Source: Betaproteobacteria bacterium (lineage in GTDB: Bacteria > Pseudomonadota > Gammaproteobacteria > Burkholderiales > WYBJ01). From it: a DNA stretch of 64,000 nucleotides. The stretch lies in contig WHTS01000006.1 of the NCBI GenBank assembly GCA_009377585.1, positions 1 to 64,000 of the forward strand, in the 5' to 3' direction. The translations under genes were made by a program, and so were the position numbers. The notes beneath the pieces were generated by a model. The model was not told the origin of the DNA, made no database searches, and saw only the letters and a program-made list of their open reading frames with translations. Numbering within the stretch: the first letter of the stretch is position 1; each line of letters starts with the position of its first letter. Below, in pieces: positions 21,978-30,246 of the stretch.

Positions 21978-22937
21978 ATGACAAGACGCATCGCAATCGT
22001 TTGCGCACTGGCGCTGAGCGCCGGCGCCGCGGGTGCCCAGGACTATCCGACGAAGCCGATTCGCTTGCTGGTCGGATTTTCGCCGGGCGGCCCCACCGAC
22101 ATCACCGCGCGACTCGCGGCCCAGCATCTGTCCGAAGCCCTCGGGCAGCAGGTCGTCGTGGACAATCGGCCGGGCGCAGGCGGAACCGTGTCCATGACCT
22201 CGCTCACGCAGGCAGCGCCGGACGGTTACACATTGTCGCTCTGCGCCAACGGCGAGATGGCGATCTCACCCAATCTGCGTCCCAACCTCGCGTACGATCC
22301 GCTCAAGAATGTTGCGTTCATCAGCCGCATCGGCGCAAGCCAGCTCGTGCTGGTGGTTCATCCGTCGCTGCCGGTGAAATCGGTCAAGGAGCTGATCGCG
22401 CTCGCCAAGGCACGGCCGGGAGCGATCAATTTCGCATCCTCGGGCGTCGGCTCGACGGCGCACCTGGCATCGGAGCTGTTCAAGCACATGGCGGGCATCA
22501 ACATCATTCACGTCCCCTACAAGGGCGCGGGCCCCGCGCTGACGGACCTGATCGGCGGGCAGGTGCAGATGCTGATTACCGGTTTCTCCGGCGCCGTGCC
22601 GCACGTCAAGGCCGGCAGACTGCGCGCGCTCGGCGCAACCGGGGCCAAGCGGATGTCCGCCATGCCGCAGCTGCCGACGATCGGCGAGACGGTGCCCGGC
22701 TACGAGGTGACGTCGTGGTACGGCATCGTCGCACCGGTCGGCACGCCCCGCGCGGTGATCACGAAACTGCACGGCGTACTCGCCGCAATGGTCCGGCAGC
22801 CGGAGGTCAGCGCACGTCTGGTCTCGCTCGGCATCGAACCCGAAGGCAGCTCTCCGGAAGAATTCGCGGCGCAGACGCGACGCGAGATCGCGAAATGGGC
22901 CAAGGTGGTCAAACTGGCGGGCGTGAAGCTGGATTGA
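21978..22937 (+). CDS. Bug-family periplasmic solute receptor (TctC-like)
   Basis: The 319-residue receptor has a Sec signal peptide cleaved near AGAAGAQDY. It shows the full set of Bug signatures: KPIRLLVGFSPGGPTDITAR, GQQVVVDNRPGAGGTVSM, APDGYTLSL, HVPYKGAGPALTDLIGGQVQ and LPTIGETVPGYEV. It is an orphan receptor with no adjacent permease. Similar receptors deliver carboxylates to distant Tct permeases, such as the one at 45549-47519, or act in sensing. The partner is inferred only. Confidence 0.93.
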   Translation: MTRRIAIVCALALSAGAAGAQDYPTKPIRLLVGFSPGGPTDITARLAAQHLSEALGQQVVVDNRPGAGGTVSMTSLTQAAPDGYTLSLCANGEMAISPNLRPNLAYDPLKNVAFISRIGASQLVLVVHPSLPVKSVKELIALAKARPGAINFASSGVGSTAHLASELFKHMAGINIIHVPYKGAGPALTDLIGGQVQMLITGFSGAVPHVKAGRLRALGATGAKRMSAMPQLPTIGETVPGYEVTSWYGIVAPVGTPRAVITKLHGVLAAMVRQPEVSARLVSLGIEPEGSSPEEFAAQTRREIAKWAKVVKLAGVKLD

Positions 22938-23030: not shown

Positions 23031-24203
23031 TCAATCCATCGCGCCCGCCGGCGCGACGTTCGATTCGTCCGCGAAGCCTTGCGCGTTGCGCCGCTTCTTC
23101 AGCCACAAGTACAGTCCGCTTGCGAGCACCACGATCGTGATGATGTCGAGCAGCGCCCATAGAATCTTCATTGGCATGCCGCCGTAATCGCCGAAGTGCA
23201 GCGGTTGCGAGACCAGAAGCGCGGTCAGGTACCACGGCAGTTTCGGTGCCGCGGTAATCGCGGCCGTTTCGGCGTCGACCAGAACCGGCTGCAGCAGGCG
23301 GGATGTGAGCGGCGCGCTGCCGCGTAGAAAGAAGGTGTAGTGGTGCGGACTGGAGAAGGCCGTGCCGGGAAAGGCGATGAACGAAAGCGTCGTGCCGGGC
23401 GCGTTTGCCAGCGCCGCGTCGAGCGAGCGCTGCACCGACGCGCGCTCGCTGCTCGCGACGACGGGTTGGTCGCGGTACGGCGCGAGCAAGGTGCTCAGCT
23501 GATCGTACTGCCAGTACTTCACCAGCAGGTCGGCCCAGGTGTTGATCACACCGGTCGCGCCGACGACAAGCGCCCACATCAGCGTGACGATTCCCAACAG
23601 GTTGTGCAGGTCGAGCCATTTGATCCGCGAGGTGCGGCCACGCCGGACTGCGCCGAAATCGAGCCTGCGCGTGAACGGGCCGTACAGCACGATGCCCGAG
23701 ACGATGGCGATCACCAGCAGCAGCCCCATGAAACCGAGAAAGAGCTTGCCCGGCAGACCGGCGAACAGGTCGACGTGCAGCTTGAGCATGACATACATGA
23801 AGCCTTCGTCGAAACGCGGCTCGGCCAGGATATCGGCGGTGCGTGCGTCGACGGCGACGGAGCGGAAATCTTCCGTGGGCTCGGGGGTCGGCGTGAGCGT
23901 GACGAACCACAAGTCGGTGCTGTCCTCGGGCTGCGACGCGAACTGAACGATCCGGTCGGGGTGGCGGGCGTTCGCGACCTCCAGGACTCGGTCGAGCCCC
24001 GCCTTCGGCGTGCCGGGCGGCATTGCCGGCGCCTCGACTTCGGTGCCGAGCAGGTGGCCGATTTCGTGGTGAAAGATGAGCGGCAGCCCGGTCAGGCACA
24101 GCAGCAGCATGAACAGCGTGCAGACGAGGCTGCTCCACTTGTGCAGCCACGACCAGGTGCGAATGGCGCCGGGAGCGAGCAGGGCCGGGGCAGGTCGTTG
24201 CAT
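23031..24203 (-). CDS. PepSY-associated TM domain protein
   Basis: The 390-residue membrane protein has the PepSY-TM layout. The first helix follows WSWLHKWSSLVCTLFMLLLC and is followed by the LPLIFHHEIGHLL loop. A periplasmic PepSY-like domain sits at about 50-150, with further helices near 158-185, 208-228 and 355-378. Conserved histidines (H21, H45, H46, H50 and others) suggest heme or metal handling. Such proteins include iron-siderophore reductases and metal-related membrane proteins. It is preceded by only five bases by a small membrane protein gene, and the pair forms a transcription unit. Confidence 0.88.
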   Translation of the reverse strand: MQRPAPALLAPGAIRTWSWLHKWSSLVCTLFMLLLCLTGLPLIFHHEIGHLLGTEVEAPAMPPGTPKAGLDRVLEVANARHPDRIVQFASQPEDSTDLWFVTLTPTPEPTEDFRSVAVDARTADILAEPRFDEGFMYVMLKLHVDLFAGLPGKLFLGFMGLLLVIAIVSGIVLYGPFTRRLDFGAVRRGRTSRIKWLDLHNLLGIVTLMWALVVGATGVINTWADLLVKYWQYDQLSTLLAPYRDQPVVASSERASVQRSLDAALANAPGTTLSFIAFPGTAFSSPHHYTFFLRGSAPLTSRLLQPVLVDAETAAITAAPKLPWYLTALLVSQPLHFGDYGGMPMKILWALLDIITIVVLASGLYLWLKKRRNAQGFADESNVAPAGAMD

Positions 24204-24208
24204 GAGAG

Positions 24209-24409
24209 CTACCTGGATGAATACGGCGCAGAACCGGGTCGCTCAGGATGCCAAGCGAACCAGCCGATGACCAGAACCGGGATGCCGAGGCCGAGCCACG
24301 ACCACACGTCGCCCCATGCCTCCGACACGAGCGCCGAGATGAGACCGCTCGTGGTAAGAATCGCCAGCGCCGTGGGCCAGGTCCACGTGCGAATGCGCTC
24401 GCGGCTCAT
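24209..24409 (-). CDS. Small membrane protein preceding the PepSY gene
   Basis: This 66-residue protein has two hydrophobic segments (TALAILTTSGLISALVSEAW and WLGLGIPVLVIGWFAW) and begins MSRERIRTWTWP. Small proteins of this shape recur directly upstream of PepSY-TM genes in Burkholderiales, so it is probably a subunit or assembly partner. The function is unknown. The spacing to the next gene is five bases, implying translational coupling. Confidence 0.75.
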   Translation of the reverse strand: MSRERIRTWTWPTALAILTTSGLISALVSEAWGDVWSWLGLGIPVLVIGWFAWHPERPGSAPYSSR

Positions 24410-24442
24410 GCCGGGCGGAAACGGAAGGATCGCTCTGTTTGG

Positions 24443-24736
24443 CTAGAAGCGTCGCGGCTTGAAGAACCAGGTATAGCCATCCGGCGCGGCCCGCACGGCG
24501 ATGGCGCCGGCAACCGTTCCTCCCGCGCCCGTGCGATTGTCCACGATGACCCGTTGACCCCAGCCTTGCGAGAGCTGCTCGGCGAGCAGACGGGCAACGA
24601 CATCGATCTCGCTGCCGGGAGTAAAGCCGACGATCATGCGCACCGGCTTGTTCGGAAACCGCTCCTGCGATTGTGCGGCGTGCTGGGGGCCGAGGCACAT
24701 CACGGCCGCTGAGACTGCAACTTGCAGGTATCGCAT
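24443..24736 (-). pseudogene. Bug-family receptor, truncated after about 90 residues
   Basis: The start is normal: signal peptide to about AAQSQ, then KPVRMIVGFTPGSEIDVVAR, GQRVIVDNRTGAGGTVAG and APDGYTW. The frame then ends within six codons (FFKPRRF), where intact homologues go on for another 220 residues. The following sequence is occupied by the small membrane protein and PepSY genes. This is a 3' truncation from a rearrangement. Confidence 0.85.
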
Positions 24737-24886
24737 GACTGCTGACTCCTCCTTCGGTTTACGGCGTGGGACCGCCAGCTCGTTGGTGCTTCGTTCTACG
24801 TCGACCGGACCTCCATCGTGGCGCCAGGCGCAGCGTTACCCGGCGCATTGATTCCTGCCCCATGCGAGCGGGATGGATGCGCGCGT

Positions 24887-25025: not shown

Positions 25026-26507
25026 TCAATCCGCGCGGTGCTGGCGGAGCTTTCGCATGTCGATCACGAGATCGAAGGTGCCGCCGTGCGGCGCCTCCGG
25101 CCCTGCCCTGAGCGTGTAGGAGCTCGCGGGCATCCCGGACGGAAAACGCCGTCGCAACGCACAATTGAACATCGCCTCCACGGCCCAGTCGGTGTCCGAG
25201 GACAGTGAGCCGAACTCGTCGGCGAAGGTTCGCTGCGTCGCGCGATTTTCCGTGGAAGAGTGGATCACGTAGACCGTCATGCCGGGCTCGAACCGACTCG
25301 CGGCATCGAGCATGATTTGCCACTCCCACCCTTGGGGCTCGGCAATGAGCGTGTAGGCGTGTCGATTGGCGGCCACGGCGCCGGTAACGAGCATCAGGCT
25401 CAGCGCGGCATAGTGCGCGCTGCGGCTGATGCGCCCGCCCGCGCGCAAGCTGCCAAGCGCATACACGATGAACACCACCACCAGGCCGGCGAGTCCGTAG
25501 GTGGTGCGGTAGCTCGGCACCCGCAAGGCCGCCACCAGATTGACCGCAAACGCAACGAACGGAAGCACGAACAGGCAGAACAGCGCAGTCCAATTGTCGA
25601 CGGGCTTTCGATTCACGCGCCATAGGAAGCCCGCCGCGATCAACGCGGTGACGAGCACGACGGCAACCCAGAATGCCAGTGGTGTATCGAAGCGGTCGCG
25701 CAGTACGAACAGCCCGAGCGAGTTGGCAACCGGCCCGGAGACGAACCAGACCAGCTTCGCGAGCGGATCGGTTTCGAGCCCGAATACGGTGGCTTGCTTG
25801 AGCCAGCCGAGCGCGAACACCATTCGCATCGCCACGAAGCCCGTGGCGATGCCGCCGAGCCCGGTTGCCAGGTGTGCGGCACACCAGCCGAGCCGTGCAC
25901 GCGCCGGATCGCTTTTGAGCAGCAGGGCCGCAGCCAGCGGCACCACGAAGAACAGTGCGCTCGGTTGATAGATGAGTCCCGCGACGAGATAGGCGAAAAA
26001 TCCTGCGGCCCATGCGCCGAGCCGCGGCCAGCCCGTGCGCGCGAGCGCGGCGTCGGTGGCGGCGAAGCCGCCGAGCGCAAGCAACAACGCCAACGCAAGT
26101 GGCCACGCAATGGACCACCCGACGGTCATCTGCGCGGCCGGCAACATCCCGATCGACAACCCGACCGCCGCGCTCTCGAACGTGGACCATCCCGCCCGCT
26201 GCAGCAGCCGCATCAGGACCATACCCACCAGCGCGAGCAGGAAAACAGCCCCGAGTCGCAACCACTCGAGATTCGCGACCTGTCCATCCAGCGGGCGCAC
26301 CGTGGCGACCAGCAGCGGGCCGTATACGGGGCGTCCGTAAGAGGACGTAAAGCGAATCAGGTGTTCGGGAATCTCGCGGGTTTCGCGCAAGTGCGAATAG
26401 TCGTCCCGGAAGCCGTATTCGTGAAAGACGGTGGGCCAATACGTCGGAAGCAATACGAGCAGGAATAGCGCGACATAGATCCAGTTACGCACTATCTGCT
26501 CGCGCAT
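25026..26507 (-). CDS. Multi-pass membrane protein, probable GT-C-type glycosyltransferase
   Basis: The 493-residue protein has about ten to twelve hydrophobic helices. The first is followed by the periplasmic loop motif GFRDDYSHLRE. Paired acidic residues just after the first helix are the hallmark of GT-C enzymes (PMT, ArnT, GtrC and oligosaccharyltransferases), which move a sugar from a polyprenyl-phosphate carrier on the outer face of the membrane. The C-terminal 110 residues are soluble and periplasmic. No close named family was recognised. It overlaps the upstream methyltransferase gene by 16 bases and is the last gene of the five-gene operon, where it would be the transferase. Confidence 0.7.
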   Translation of the reverse strand: MREQIVRNWIYVALFLLVLLPTYWPTVFHEYGFRDDYSHLRETREIPEHLIRFTSSYGRPVYGPLLVATVRPLDGQVANLEWLRLGAVFLLALVGMVLMRLLQRAGWSTFESAAVGLSIGMLPAAQMTVGWSIAWPLALALLLALGGFAATDAALARTGWPRLGAWAAGFFAYLVAGLIYQPSALFFVVPLAAALLLKSDPARARLGWCAAHLATGLGGIATGFVAMRMVFALGWLKQATVFGLETDPLAKLVWFVSGPVANSLGLFVLRDRFDTPLAFWVAVVLVTALIAAGFLWRVNRKPVDNWTALFCLFVLPFVAFAVNLVAALRVPSYRTTYGLAGLVVVFIVYALGSLRAGGRISRSAHYAALSLMLVTGAVAANRHAYTLIAEPQGWEWQIMLDAASRFEPGMTVYVIHSSTENRATQRTFADEFGSLSSDTDWAVEAMFNCALRRRFPSGMPASSYTLRAGPEAPHGGTFDLVIDMRKLRQHRAD

Positions 26508-27187
26508 ACGTAGTATTGGGCACCCAGCGGCAGCCAGGTGAGATGGCGCTCGAGCACGCGCAATCGGCGCAGGAGGGCCGGGAAGAAGATGCGATAGCGG
26601 ATGCGCGCAGTGCCGAAGCCGGCCTCGAGCATGCGGCTGCGCATCGTCGGTGCCATGATGAGCACCGCGTTCTCATCGAACTCGCACGTATTTACGGCGC
26701 GGCGCGTCAGCGGATTCAGCGGATTGTGCTCGAAGACGAACAGGGTGCCGCCGGGCTTGAGAACGCGCCGTATCTCGCGCAGCAAGCCGATGTGCTCCCC
26801 GGGTGGTACATGATGAAACACGCACGACGCCAGAGCTACGTCGAAGCTTGCGGCTTCGTAGGGAATGGTCGTGCCGTCGAAATGGCGGAACTCGGCCTCG
26901 TCCTGATGCTTCGCCGCGCCGATGGCGAGGCTGCGCTTCGACACGTCCAGGCACGTAATGCTGGCCGCAGGCATGTGGCGGCGAAAAAATGGAACCGAAT
27001 AGCCAACGCCTGCGCCGAAATCGAGCACGCGCCCGTCGAGCCCCGCGTTCGCGCCCGTAAGCTCGGCGGCAATGTCCTTGATCTTGTACTCGGCGAAATA
27101 CTCCGGGTTCTCGCCCGACAGCTTGATGTTCGCGGCATGGAGGTCACGATACTCGGCGGCAAACTTGTCGAACTCGGCTTCGTCCAT
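26492..27187 (-). CDS. Class I SAM-dependent methyltransferase
   Basis: The 231-residue protein has a Rossmann-fold methyltransferase domain. Motif I is VLDFGAGVGYSVPFF, motif II TCLDVSKRSLAIG, then FDGTTIPYEAASFDVALAS (motif III) and REIRRVLKPGGTLFVFEHN (motif post-III). The target is unknown; its place between a YdjC deacetylase and a GT-C-like protein suggests methylation of a sugar or lipid carrier intermediate. It starts 13 bases after the YdjC gene's stop and overlaps the next gene. Confidence 0.9.
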   Translation of the reverse strand: MDEAEFDKFAAEYRDLHAANIKLSGENPEYFAEYKIKDIAAELTGANAGLDGRVLDFGAGVGYSVPFFRRHMPAASITCLDVSKRSLAIGAAKHQDEAEFRHFDGTTIPYEAASFDVALASCVFHHVPPGEHIGLLREIRRVLKPGGTLFVFEHNPLNPLTRRAVNTCEFDENAVLIMAPTMRSRMLEAGFGTARIRYRIFFPALLRRLRVLERHLTWLPLGAQYYVCASR

Positions 27188-27200
27188 CGGATTCGAGCCT

Positions 27201-28049
27201 TCAAAGATCGCGCTGGCCGATGAGCTCGATGCCGCGTGCGTGGATCAGCTCTCTGATCCTTGCGGCTGCGAGCGCCTCGCCCTCGGCCGGACCGGCGTAA
27301 CCCCATTGCCGCTGCGGGCCGTCGGGCTCGGCCTCTGCCGGATGGCACATGAGCTCGATGGTGCCGCGCGTGGGCAGAGAGCGCAAAACCGTCTCCAGGT
27401 TGCCCTGCGTGAGTCTTCCGCCGAAATAGAAACCGACGAACCGGTCGGGATGCCCCAGGCGCCGCAATGCCGACAGCGTGCAGACCGCGTTCAACGCGAG
27501 CTGTTCGGCCAGCCGCCGTGCGCTGCCGAGGCTTTTGAACATGTAGGCATGCAGCCGCTCGCAAGGATAGCGTATGACGCGGATCGCGTGTGCGCTTGCC
27601 AGATCGGCAACGATGCGCGCAATGCCTGGTAGCGCGTGTACGTGCTGATGGCTGTCGAGATGGCTGATCGAAAGGCCGTGGGCGCGCGCGAGCCGGATCT
27701 GCGCGTCGAGCTCGGTGCGCACCTCGGCAGCCACGAGCGAACCGCGGGCGTAGCGGCGCGCAAAATCGAGCGCGTGGGGCGCGAACCGCAGGTTCTCGTC
27801 GACCAGCGACGATACCGTATCGGGCGAGGTTATGGGCCCGAGCCCGGTGAGCGTGAGGTGCACGCCTATGTCGAGCGTCGGATTCTCCTTCGCAAGCGCC
27901 ACTGCGTGCTCGAACGCGGGACCGTTGACCATCACCGAGGCCGACGTGACGATGCCGTCGCGATGCGCCGCGACGATGCCGCGATTGATGGCGGGCGAAA
28001 GCCCGAAGTCGTCGGCATTCACGATCAACCGTGTGCCGGCCGCGTTCAC
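27201..28049 (-). CDS. YdjC/ChbG-family carbohydrate deacetylase
   Basis: The 282-residue protein is a member of the YdjC/ChbG/HpnK family. The metal site is NADDFGLS near the N-terminus and the HLDSHQHVHALPGI block with two histidines and an aspartate. HLTLTGLGPITS and IELMCHPAEAE complete the site. Enzymes of this family remove N-acetyl groups; NaxD of Francisella deacetylates undecaprenyl-phosphate-linked GalNAc. The GTG at 28049 is chosen because it overlaps the TGA of gtrA (GTGA) and homology starts right after it. Together with a GT2 enzyme and a flippase, it would deacetylate a lipid-linked sugar. Confidence 0.88.
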   Translation of the reverse strand: MNAAGTRLIVNADDFGLSPAINRGIVAAHRDGIVTSASVMVNGPAFEHAVALAKENPTLDIGVHLTLTGLGPITSPDTVSSLVDENLRFAPHALDFARRYARGSLVAAEVRTELDAQIRLARAHGLSISHLDSHQHVHALPGIARIVADLASAHAIRVIRYPCERLHAYMFKSLGSARRLAEQLALNAVCTLSALRRLGHPDRFVGFYFGGRLTQGNLETVLRSLPTRGTIELMCHPAEAEPDGPQRQWGYAGPAEGEALAAARIRELIHARGIELIGQRDL

Positions 28050-28492
28050 GTGGTCTTGCTCGAAGGCCGCGGCGCGTGCGCGAACGCCCAGTGCTTGCAG
28101 CCGAGATAGTTCAGCATCATCACTGCAACGGTGGTGGGCACCCACACGGCAATCTCGGGGTAGTGCAGCACGTCGACGAAACGAAACATCACCGCCGTGC
28201 TCAGCGCGAGGCTCGAAAGATTCACGATCGTGAAGCGCACGGCCTGCTCCGCCGCATTTCCGGAGGCGCGAAATGTCCAGGAGCGATTCAGAAGGAAGCT
28301 GTTGATCATACCGGCCAGGTAGGCGAGCAGGTTTGCAAGCGCGGCGGCGGGGAAATTCCGTTGTACGGCCTCAGGCAGGTAGTGGAAGCTCAGGAAGAAC
28401 ACGGTGAAGCTCACGACGAAATTCGTGAGACCGACGAGCGCGAAGCGGATGGCCGTATGCGCGCGGCTCGCGCGAAGCTTGCGCAGCACCAT
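28046..28492 (-). CDS. GtrA-family membrane protein (polyprenyl-phosphate-sugar flippase)
   Basis: The 148-residue protein has four membrane helices and the GtrA pattern FALVGLTNFVVSFTVFFL, then NLLAYLAGMINSFLLNRSWTF and a C-terminal LNYLGCKHWAF. GtrA proteins move undecaprenyl-phosphate-linked sugars to the periplasmic face. The ATG at 28492 overlaps the stop of the GT2 gene (ATGA), and its stop overlaps the YdjC start, so all three are coupled. Confidence 0.9.
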   Translation of the reverse strand: MVLRKLRASRAHTAIRFALVGLTNFVVSFTVFFLSFHYLPEAVQRNFPAAALANLLAYLAGMINSFLLNRSWTFRASGNAAEQAVRFTIVNLSSLALSTAVMFRFVDVLHYPEIAVWVPTTVAVMMLNYLGCKHWAFAHAPRPSSKTT

Positions 28493-29493
28493 CAGGTGCC
28501 GGTGCGAACGTCGGTCGGGGCGGCCGACTGGAGGTGAGCGCGGTTGCGCGGCCGGAGGACGGCGCCGGCGGTCTCGCGTACCAGAAAGCGCGGCCGGCCG
28601 CGCACCTCGACGACAATGCGGCCCAAGTACTCGGCGAGAATGGCGAGCACCACGAACAGCAGGCCGAACAGCACCGACATGATCGCCAGTGACGAGGCCC
28701 AGCCGGGCACGACCGCTCGGTCGAGCCACCAGCCGAGGATCGCGTAGCTGACGCCGAGAAGCGACAAGGTGGACGCCGCGAGCCCGATGACGACGGCGAT
28801 GCGCAGCGGCACGAGGGAAAACGAGCTGATGCCGTACCATGCAAGCCTGAGCATCTTTCGCACGTCATAGCTGCTCGCGCCCGAGTGGCGTTCGCAGCAA
28901 TCGAACGGCACGGCTGCGGTCGCGTAGCCCACCCAATGTACGATGCCGCGCAGGAACAGGCCTTCTTCCCTGAACTTCAGGATCTCGTCGAGCACTTGCC
29001 GATCGAGCAAACGAAAATCCGCCGCGCCGGGTTCGATGTGCACGCCGCTCAAATACGAGAAAAGCCGGTAGTACAGTCGCGAAGTAAGCGTCTTGCTCAG
29101 GGCCAGGCTGCGCGAATCGCGGCGGATCGCGTGCACGATCTGAAAGCCTTCGCGCCACTTCTGGATCAGCAGCGGCAACACCTCGGGGGGATGCTGCAGA
29201 TCCGCATCCATCGAGATCACGGCTTCGCCGCGCGCCGCGGCGAGACCCGCGAGCAAGGCGTTCTGATGGCCGAAGTTTCGCGACAGCCGCACGCCGCGAA
29301 CCCGGGAGTCGGCGGCGGCCAGCGCCGTTACGCGGGCCCAGGTATCGTCGCTGCTGCCGTCATCGACGATCACCAGCTCCCAGTCGGAGCCTTCCCAGGC
29401 GCCAATCTGGACCTGCATTTGCGTGCTTACGCGCGCATGCAGCAACGCGATGTTGCGCTCTTCGTTGTGGGCTGGTACGACAATGGAAATCAT
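28492..29493 (-). CDS. Family 2 glycosyltransferase (GtrB/FlmF2/DPM1-type)
   Basis: The 333-residue protein has a GT-A domain (ISIVVPAHNEERNIALL, DDGSSDDTW, the DXD-type SMDADLQHPPEVLPLL, and FRLLDRQVLDEIL) and two C-terminal membrane helices (about 240-262 and 275-300), the layout of polyprenyl-phosphate glycosyltransferases such as GtrB. It would charge undecaprenyl phosphate with a sugar on the cytoplasmic face. It is the first gene of the operon. Confidence 0.93.
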   Translation of the reverse strand: MISIVVPAHNEERNIALLHARVSTQMQVQIGAWEGSDWELVIVDDGSSDDTWARVTALAAADSRVRGVRLSRNFGHQNALLAGLAAARGEAVISMDADLQHPPEVLPLLIQKWREGFQIVHAIRRDSRSLALSKTLTSRLYYRLFSYLSGVHIEPGAADFRLLDRQVLDEILKFREEGLFLRGIVHWVGYATAAVPFDCCERHSGASSYDVRKMLRLAWYGISSFSLVPLRIAVVIGLAASTLSLLGVSYAILGWWLDRAVVPGWASSLAIMSVLFGLLFVVLAILAEYLGRIVVEVRGRPRFLVRETAGAVLRPRNRAHLQSAAPTDVRTGT

Positions 29494-29598: not shown

Positions 29599-30246
29599 AT
29601 GACAGTGAATCTGGACGTATTCGACGCCTTGCCACTCAAAGAACGGCTGTTCGTGCGCGGCCGGCTGGCTTCCGCGCCGCTGCACGAGCTGGCGGCGCGC
29701 GCGCAGGGATTGTCGCTTCTCGACGTCGGTTGCGGTCATGGTGCCTTGGTCGCGTTGCTCGCCGTTGGCCGACCGGAGCGTCATGTGGTTGGCATCGATC
29801 CCGACACGCGCAAGATCGACTGGGCGCGCCGGTCGGTTGGCCGCTGCAGTAACGTGGAGCTCATCGCATGCACGATTGATGCCCTGGCCGCCGAGCGGCC
29901 TGCCGAGTTCGACACGGTACTCGTGGCCGACGTTCTCTATTTGCTGGCCGCGGAAACTTGGGCGCCGTTCCTGGATGCCGCCCACGAGCTCCTGAGGCCC
30001 GGCGGGCGCCTCGTGCTCAAGGAAGCCGAAGACGACGGCTCATGGCGCATGACCAAGGCGTTGTGGCAAGAGCGGCTGATGGTGCATCTCTTGCGACGCA
30101 CGCAATCGAGCGGTGCCGTAGGGTTTGTGCCGCGCGAAATGCTCACCGAGGCACTGCACCGGGCGCGCTTTACGATCGAGGAAACGGTCGGTCTCGCGCG
30201 TGGATATTCCACGCCGCATGTCCTGTTCACGGCACGGGCTGCCTGA
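29599..30246 (+). CDS. Class I SAM-dependent methyltransferase
   Basis: The 215-residue product shows motif I as LLDVGCGHGALVALLAVG, motif II as VVGIDPDTRKIDWARR, VLVADVLYLLAAE and LRPGGRLVLKEAEDDG. The ATG at 29599 is used because homology starts there. It is divergent from the envelope-glycan operon with a 105-base gap, so it may be co-regulated with it, but this is only positional inference. The substrate is unknown. Confidence 0.85.
   Translation: MTVNLDVFDALPLKERLFVRGRLASAPLHELAARAQGLSLLDVGCGHGALVALLAVGRPERHVVGIDPDTRKIDWARRSVGRCSNVELIACTIDALAAERPAEFDTVLVADVLYLLAAETWAPFLDAAHELLRPGGRLVLKEAEDDGSWRMTKALWQERLMVHLLRRTQSSGAVGFVPREMLTEALHRARFTIEETVGLARGYSTPHVLFTARAA

Follow-up and report, generated by a model that had tools for sequence, protein, structure and literature searches.

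FlmF2, NaxD and FlmK form the lipid A amino-sugar route of Francisella. Parts of PMC11127046, PMC3688519 and PMC13390465 describe three-component systems made of GtrB, GtrA and a GT-C enzyme, a gtrA/B/II cluster of Pseudomonas appears in part of PMC8509367, and according to sections of PMC11401268, LgmB of Bordetella adds glucosamine to lipid A phosphates. Here, we analyzed a 64,000-nucleotide stretch of a Betaproteobacteria bacterium genome (assembly GCA_009377585.1, contig WHTS01000006.1, positions 1 to 64,000; hereafter the window; contig C6 in an assembly of 6.76 Mb), and found in it a six-gene cassette. This locus probably encodes a Gtr-like three-component envelope glycosylation system in which the sugar donor is tailored by a deacetylase and a methyltransferase. 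The genes are listed below with their window coordinates and strand.

29599..30246, + strand: second S-adenosylmethionine (SAM)-dependent methyltransferase (MT2), divergent; Pfam Methyltransf_25, 56 bits
28492..29493, − strand: GT2, predicted GtrB-type polyprenyl-phosphate sugar synthase, 333 residues; Pfam PF00535 Glycos_transf_2, 109 bits
28046..28492, − strand: GtrA-family small membrane protein, proposed flippase; Pfam PF04138 GtrA_DPMS_TM, 80 bits, full profile
27201..28049, − strand: YdjC-family deacetylase, 282 residues, GTG start; Pfam PF04794, 230 bits
26492..27187, − strand: class I SAM-dependent methyltransferase (MT), 231 residues; Pfam Methyltransf_11, 72 bits
25026..26507, − strand: membrane protein, probable GT-C glycosyltransferase, remotely GtrII-like, 493 residues; assigned from motifs and the GtrII scores of its relatives

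The original prediction had described the five − strand genes as overlapping or lying within 13 bases of one another, and the open reading frame (ORF) coordinates agree: GT2 and GtrA overlap by 1 base, GtrA and YdjC by 4 bases, 13 bases separate YdjC from MT, and MT overlaps the membrane protein gene by 16 bases. The four families it had named (GT2, GtrA, YdjC and methyltransferase) were all recovered by Pfam above the cut-off. It had overlooked MT2, which lies about 105 bp from GT2 in divergent orientation and is part of the same block. The whole block, including a neighboring MFS gene and MT2, is kept in the same order in locus L004, a contig of the metagenome-assembled genome Burkholderiaceae bacterium AOB1. 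Compared with the L004 copies (73-87% identical), the ratio of nonsynonymous to synonymous substitution rates is 0.14 for GT2, 0.17 for GtrA, 0.32 for YdjC, 0.12 for MT, 0.27 for the membrane protein and 0.12 for MT2. With ratios of 0.12-0.32, the five ORFs are no chance reading, and judging from these ratios purifying selection acts on all six genes.

The GT2 carries the motifs DDGS at 44 and DADLQHP at 96, its nearest solved chain is the GtrB sll0501 (211 bits, compared with 151 bits for ArnC), and a hydropathy scan found two hydrophobic segments, both C-terminal (230-248 and 269-287). By these comparisons it belongs to the GtrB-type polyprenyl-phosphate enzymes whose membrane segments lie at the C terminus, and its operon also encodes a predicted GtrA protein; both features mark Gtr systems. 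This GtrA is the single match in the whole assembly, with only two segments above the hydropathy threshold. Gtr-type O-antigen glucosylation systems (GtrA/GtrB/GtrC or GtrII) have in common with the cassette a GtrB-type GT2, a GtrA, a membrane transferase with DD...GRP, and overlapping genes. Unlike them, the cassette adds a YdjC and one or two methyltransferases, and its transferase is only remotely GtrII-like. Given that the GT2 is nearest to GtrB and the end enzyme leans towards GtrII, a Gtr three-component system fits better than the lipid A routes to which the original prediction had likened the genes. Its broader view was supported: sugars carried on polyprenyl phosphate, a deacetylase and a methyltransferase to modify them, and an end enzyme that matches neither ArnT nor PMT. 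The pentofuranose three-component systems (GT136), as presented in parts of PMC11127046, likewise have a lipid-linked donor, a flippase and a GT-C enzyme, but they use a phosphoribose entry and a MATE-family flippase where the cassette has GT2 and GtrA.

The membrane protein was then compared with known transferase families. The sequence GFRDDYSHLRE, which had been noted to follow helix 1, occupies residues 32-42 after a first hydrophobic segment at 10-28, and further landmarks are DD at 35-36, GRP at 58-60, YQP at 180-182 and a conserved C-terminal region. Eight family members share YW.T..H..G.RDDY, an R 23 residues on (with P next in 7/8), and then YQP and YRT. The GtrII family PF14264 was matched by five of the eight (E up to 10), four of these at E ≤0.0007 and one above the cut-off; in single scans L096 reached 30.6 bits, L085 29.2, L098 20.5 and L086 19.3 (cut-off 30). 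When the family was set beside eight GtrII proteins from plasmids, phages and one member of the order, DD...[GA]R[PLI] was present in all eight proteins of each set and YQ was invariant in both; the motif occurs in 18 of 246 ORFs of at least 300 residues, in a pool itself holding 13 of the 16 set members. These sequence features suggest that the membrane protein likely has a GT-C fold, and with moderate confidence we consider it GtrII-like.

Results on the membrane protein and on the distribution of the cassette weigh against the Gtr-like reading. The window protein has no Pfam match at all (E up to 1 and up to 10), PMT and ArnT families included; it lies below the Pfam Glucos_trans_II cut-off (30 bits) and, together with L097 and L099, gave no match in the GtrII scan. 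Its ortholog in L004 scored 18.5 bits on GtrII over profile positions 37-315 of 317, with the same cut-off of 30. Compared by hhalign with the eight GtrII proteins, the family gave no significant result (E 0.43); its score against a PMT-type set was better but likewise weak (E 0.0056, probability 6.5%), and the GtrII set against the PMT-type set gave E 0.21. The AlphaFold model, built from two sequences, failed, with a predicted local distance difference test score (pLDDT) of 39. The GT-C-like assignment made in the original prediction thus keeps the motif and the GtrII scores of the relatives on its side, but not the structure model or the hhalign comparison.

As for distribution, in a family sample of four genomes from one genus the membrane protein was present in two. 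The other two, G002 and G003, gave no YdjC match; they keep the MFS ortholog (81% and 77%), around which none of the six genes was found (17 and 19 kb, E 1e-6; GT2, GtrA, MT and MT2 were not searched genome-wide). In the order sample (399 genomes), strong matches to the membrane protein were confined to G000 and G001. Among 369 class genomes, G466 and G596 matched it at E ~1e-91 and G538 weakly, and in the family to which G466 belongs (f119) it occurs in 8 of 39 genomes. Seven of these eight f119 neighborhoods were readable (the eighth contig is 3 kb, and in L100 the gene is cut by the contig end), and none of the seven holds relatives of GT2, GtrA, YdjC or MT, while two gave weak MT2 matches (E 0.001 and 0.005). 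The whole cassette is thus known from two genomes of one genus: the five-gene order whose conservation had been proposed as a check stands in L004, and the samples searched gave no instance of it outside the genus. The cassette is real and rare.

Some further observations concern the membrane protein family. Weak order matches in G252 and G295 (E 6e-4 to 9e-4) were not recovered in place by the eight-member profile and were taken as chance. By sequence, the window protein had no match in the PDB, and two chlorophyll-binding chains drawn by the eight-member profile (E 0.6) were also taken as chance. No match was obtained in a viral scan with the family or a plasmid search with the membrane protein, in a viral scan for GtrII relatives, or in a PF14264 search of the own genome. 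G000:C45:39919-40101 (L005 6923-7102) holds what is left of a second membrane protein copy: 60 C-terminal residues, 53% identical and interrupted by two stops. In the f119 locus L085 (6587-13027), the membrane protein gene sits between a gene that reads like a non-ribosomal peptide synthetase and an Fe-S membrane protein gene. L087 8053-10068 encodes a distant relative that scores 38 bits on the family profile and also matches the F5/8 C domain below threshold; its surroundings read like an ABC-type O-antigen cluster.

The YdjC protein is the single match of its family in the whole assembly. Its motifs NADDFG at 11, GVHLT at 62 and HLDSHQHVH at 130, which we take to be the metal site, are intact and all lie in stretches aligning to solved YdjC-family chains. 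To place it, a tree of 66 proteins was built by a quick method with support from the Shimodaira-Hasegawa-like approximate likelihood ratio test only; hopanoid labels in it come from neighbors and lgm-like labels from architecture, and it holds no verified NaxD or LgmC. The window YdjC clusters with L004, L129, L130 and L131 (support 99). A chitin reading was ruled out by this tree and by the score against the chitin disaccharide deacetylase ChbG (NF002559, 162.5 bits, below the cut-off of 227). The best NCBIfam match is HpnK (TIGR03473), which would fit hopanoid tailoring, with an HpnK-like YdjC deacetylating a glucosaminyl hopanoid. We consider this very improbable: the 186 bits, like the 201-215 bits of L129-L131, lie below the cut-off of 232.6, whereas four members of the hopanoid-type clade reach 344-407 bits, that clade stands apart from the window YdjC (support 100), the GT2 is GtrB-like, and Pfam found no radical-SAM protein among the ten scanned in and around the locus.

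The tree also bears on a decoration of lipid A phosphate, in which a membrane enzyme would put an amino sugar from undecaprenyl phosphate on lipid A, as in FlmF2-NaxD-FlmK or Lgm. The cast would be the same, namely GT2, YdjC and a membrane transferase. Ten YdjC-GT2 loci of the order, labeled lgm-like, form one supported branch (100, with two unlabeled rows), and five of seven scanned membrane neighbors in YdjC-GT2 loci are PMT or PMT_2 proteins above the cut-off; the PMT-type set also gave the better hhalign score noted above. In this tree without verified NaxD or LgmC, the window YdjC, however, lies outside that architecture-labeled clade, and the transferase of the cassette has no PMT or ArnT match and leans towards GtrII, so that a lipid A phosphate acceptor is in our view unlikely. 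We know of no methyltransferase in the FlmF2-NaxD-FlmK or Lgm routes.

To see how YdjC genes are arranged elsewhere, 61 neighborhoods were compared, consisting of the best 40 order matches, the best 20 phylum matches and L004, from searches in which 60 of 399 order genomes and 101 of 398 phylum genomes were positive. Of the 61, 20 have a same-strand GT2 no more than 5 kb from YdjC, and a same-strand GtrA is present beside GT2 and YdjC in six (L004, L059, L073, L074, L078 and L080). In L073, L074, L078 and L080 the GtrA domain lies between GT2 and YdjC, and in L073 the three frames overlap by 4 bases each, much as those of the cassette do by 1 and 4. One membrane protein neighbor was scanned in each of seven YdjC-GT2 loci: PMT or PMT_2 was above the cut-off in L073, L078, L080, L059 and L067 and below it in L068, and the neighbor in L074 is a transporter. 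By gene order and domain content, a GT2-GtrA-YdjC core is not unique to the cassette, as it is found in four other loci, and in three of these the transferase belongs to the PMT family. GtrA is hence not an addition peculiar to this locus, as had been supposed; on either strand, it is near YdjC in 10 of the 61 neighborhoods. Four YdjC-GT2 loci (L064, L067, L070 and L079) have an opposite-strand GtrA domain near YdjC.

The closest YdjC relatives outside the genus are L129, L130 and L131, each with a same-strand GT2 within 5 kb. L130 holds an epimerase-family gene, a GT2, a Polysacc_synt_2 enzyme, a membrane protein without family assignment (with no BLASTP similarity to that of the window) and YdjC. 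L129 holds a nucleotidyltransferase, a GT2, YdjC and then a methyltransferase that aligns better to MT2 (77 bits) than to MT (32 bits). Compared with the cassette, the clusters of L129 and L130 (genomes G863/G994) have YdjC proteins at 49-51% and GT2 proteins at 36-37% identity and L129 has the MT2 relative, but they carry sugar-nucleotide genes, and no same-strand GtrA was found within 5 kb.

MT has the motif DFGAGVG at 56. Instead of the lipid-linked sugar, the methyltransferases might modify a nucleotide sugar or some metabolite with no link to the pathway, with the remainder forming a plain amino-sugar decoration system. The substrates of class I methyltransferases are unreadable from sequence, and the best solved relatives of MT, which include MitM and a D-glucose O-methyltransferase, reach only 40-47 bits, both of which favor this explanation. 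Yet the MT gene, which overlaps that of the membrane protein and is separated from YdjC by 13 bases, holds the same place in L004, and next to the MFS ortholog of G002 and G003 MT2 is missing together with the rest of the cassette, which makes this explanation quite unlikely.

The hydropathy scan found no membrane-like segment in YdjC or MT, and in MT2 one segment barely above the threshold, over the SAM motif. SAM is cytosolic, and methylation in the periplasm would be without it. YdjC and MT therefore most likely act before the flip, and the originally proposed order, in which flipping precedes deacetylation and methylation, is unlikely. Enzyme classes, gene linkage and shared presence and absence are read from the sequences; for substrate, step order, flipping and acceptor, we infer the following scheme. 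On the cytosolic face, the GT2 would load an N-acetylated sugar onto undecaprenyl phosphate, YdjC would deacetylate it, and MT, MT2 or both would methylate the sugar. The completed donor would then be carried by GtrA to the periplasmic side, where the GtrII-like membrane enzyme may pass the sugar to an envelope acceptor. A glycan such as O-antigen or core would be a likelier acceptor than lipid A phosphate, a preference weakly suggested by a transferase without an ArnT or PMT match.

The surroundings of the cassette were also inspected. Its GC content is similar to that of the flanks (0.64-0.66), so there is no compositional sign of recent import. The flanking genes scanned with Pfam (TctC, PepSY, MFS and LysR) are not phage genes, a difference from Gtr systems. 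A broken TctC receptor gene (24470-24706, − strand) adjoins the membrane protein gene; when the intact TctC of the window (21978-22937) was compared with 24200-24800, only residues 6-85 matched (50% identical).

In the open-licence literature, no paper joining YdjC and GtrA was found, and titles and abstracts of papers on NaxD/GtrA/ChbG, on a deacetylase with a methyltransferase and on HpnK brought up no such cassette. Ordinary in its parts and less so in their combination, the cassette is plausibly a new variant. More tentatively, it may be an undescribed cassette class, a doubtful but possible case where two methyltransferases and another YdjC subfamily would together turn an undecaprenyl-phosphate-linked N-acetyl sugar into a methylated amino sugar, and a new GtrII-related GT-C family would transfer it to a surface glycan as a cationic or hydrophobic decoration. 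The analysis draws attention to one clade of YdjC proteins and one family of membrane proteins, for neither of which an assigned function was found. The cassette suggests that the donor of a Gtr-type decoration system can be chemically modified while lipid-linked, like that of the lipid A amino-sugar routes, and that the transferase with which GT2, GtrA and YdjC are combined varies.

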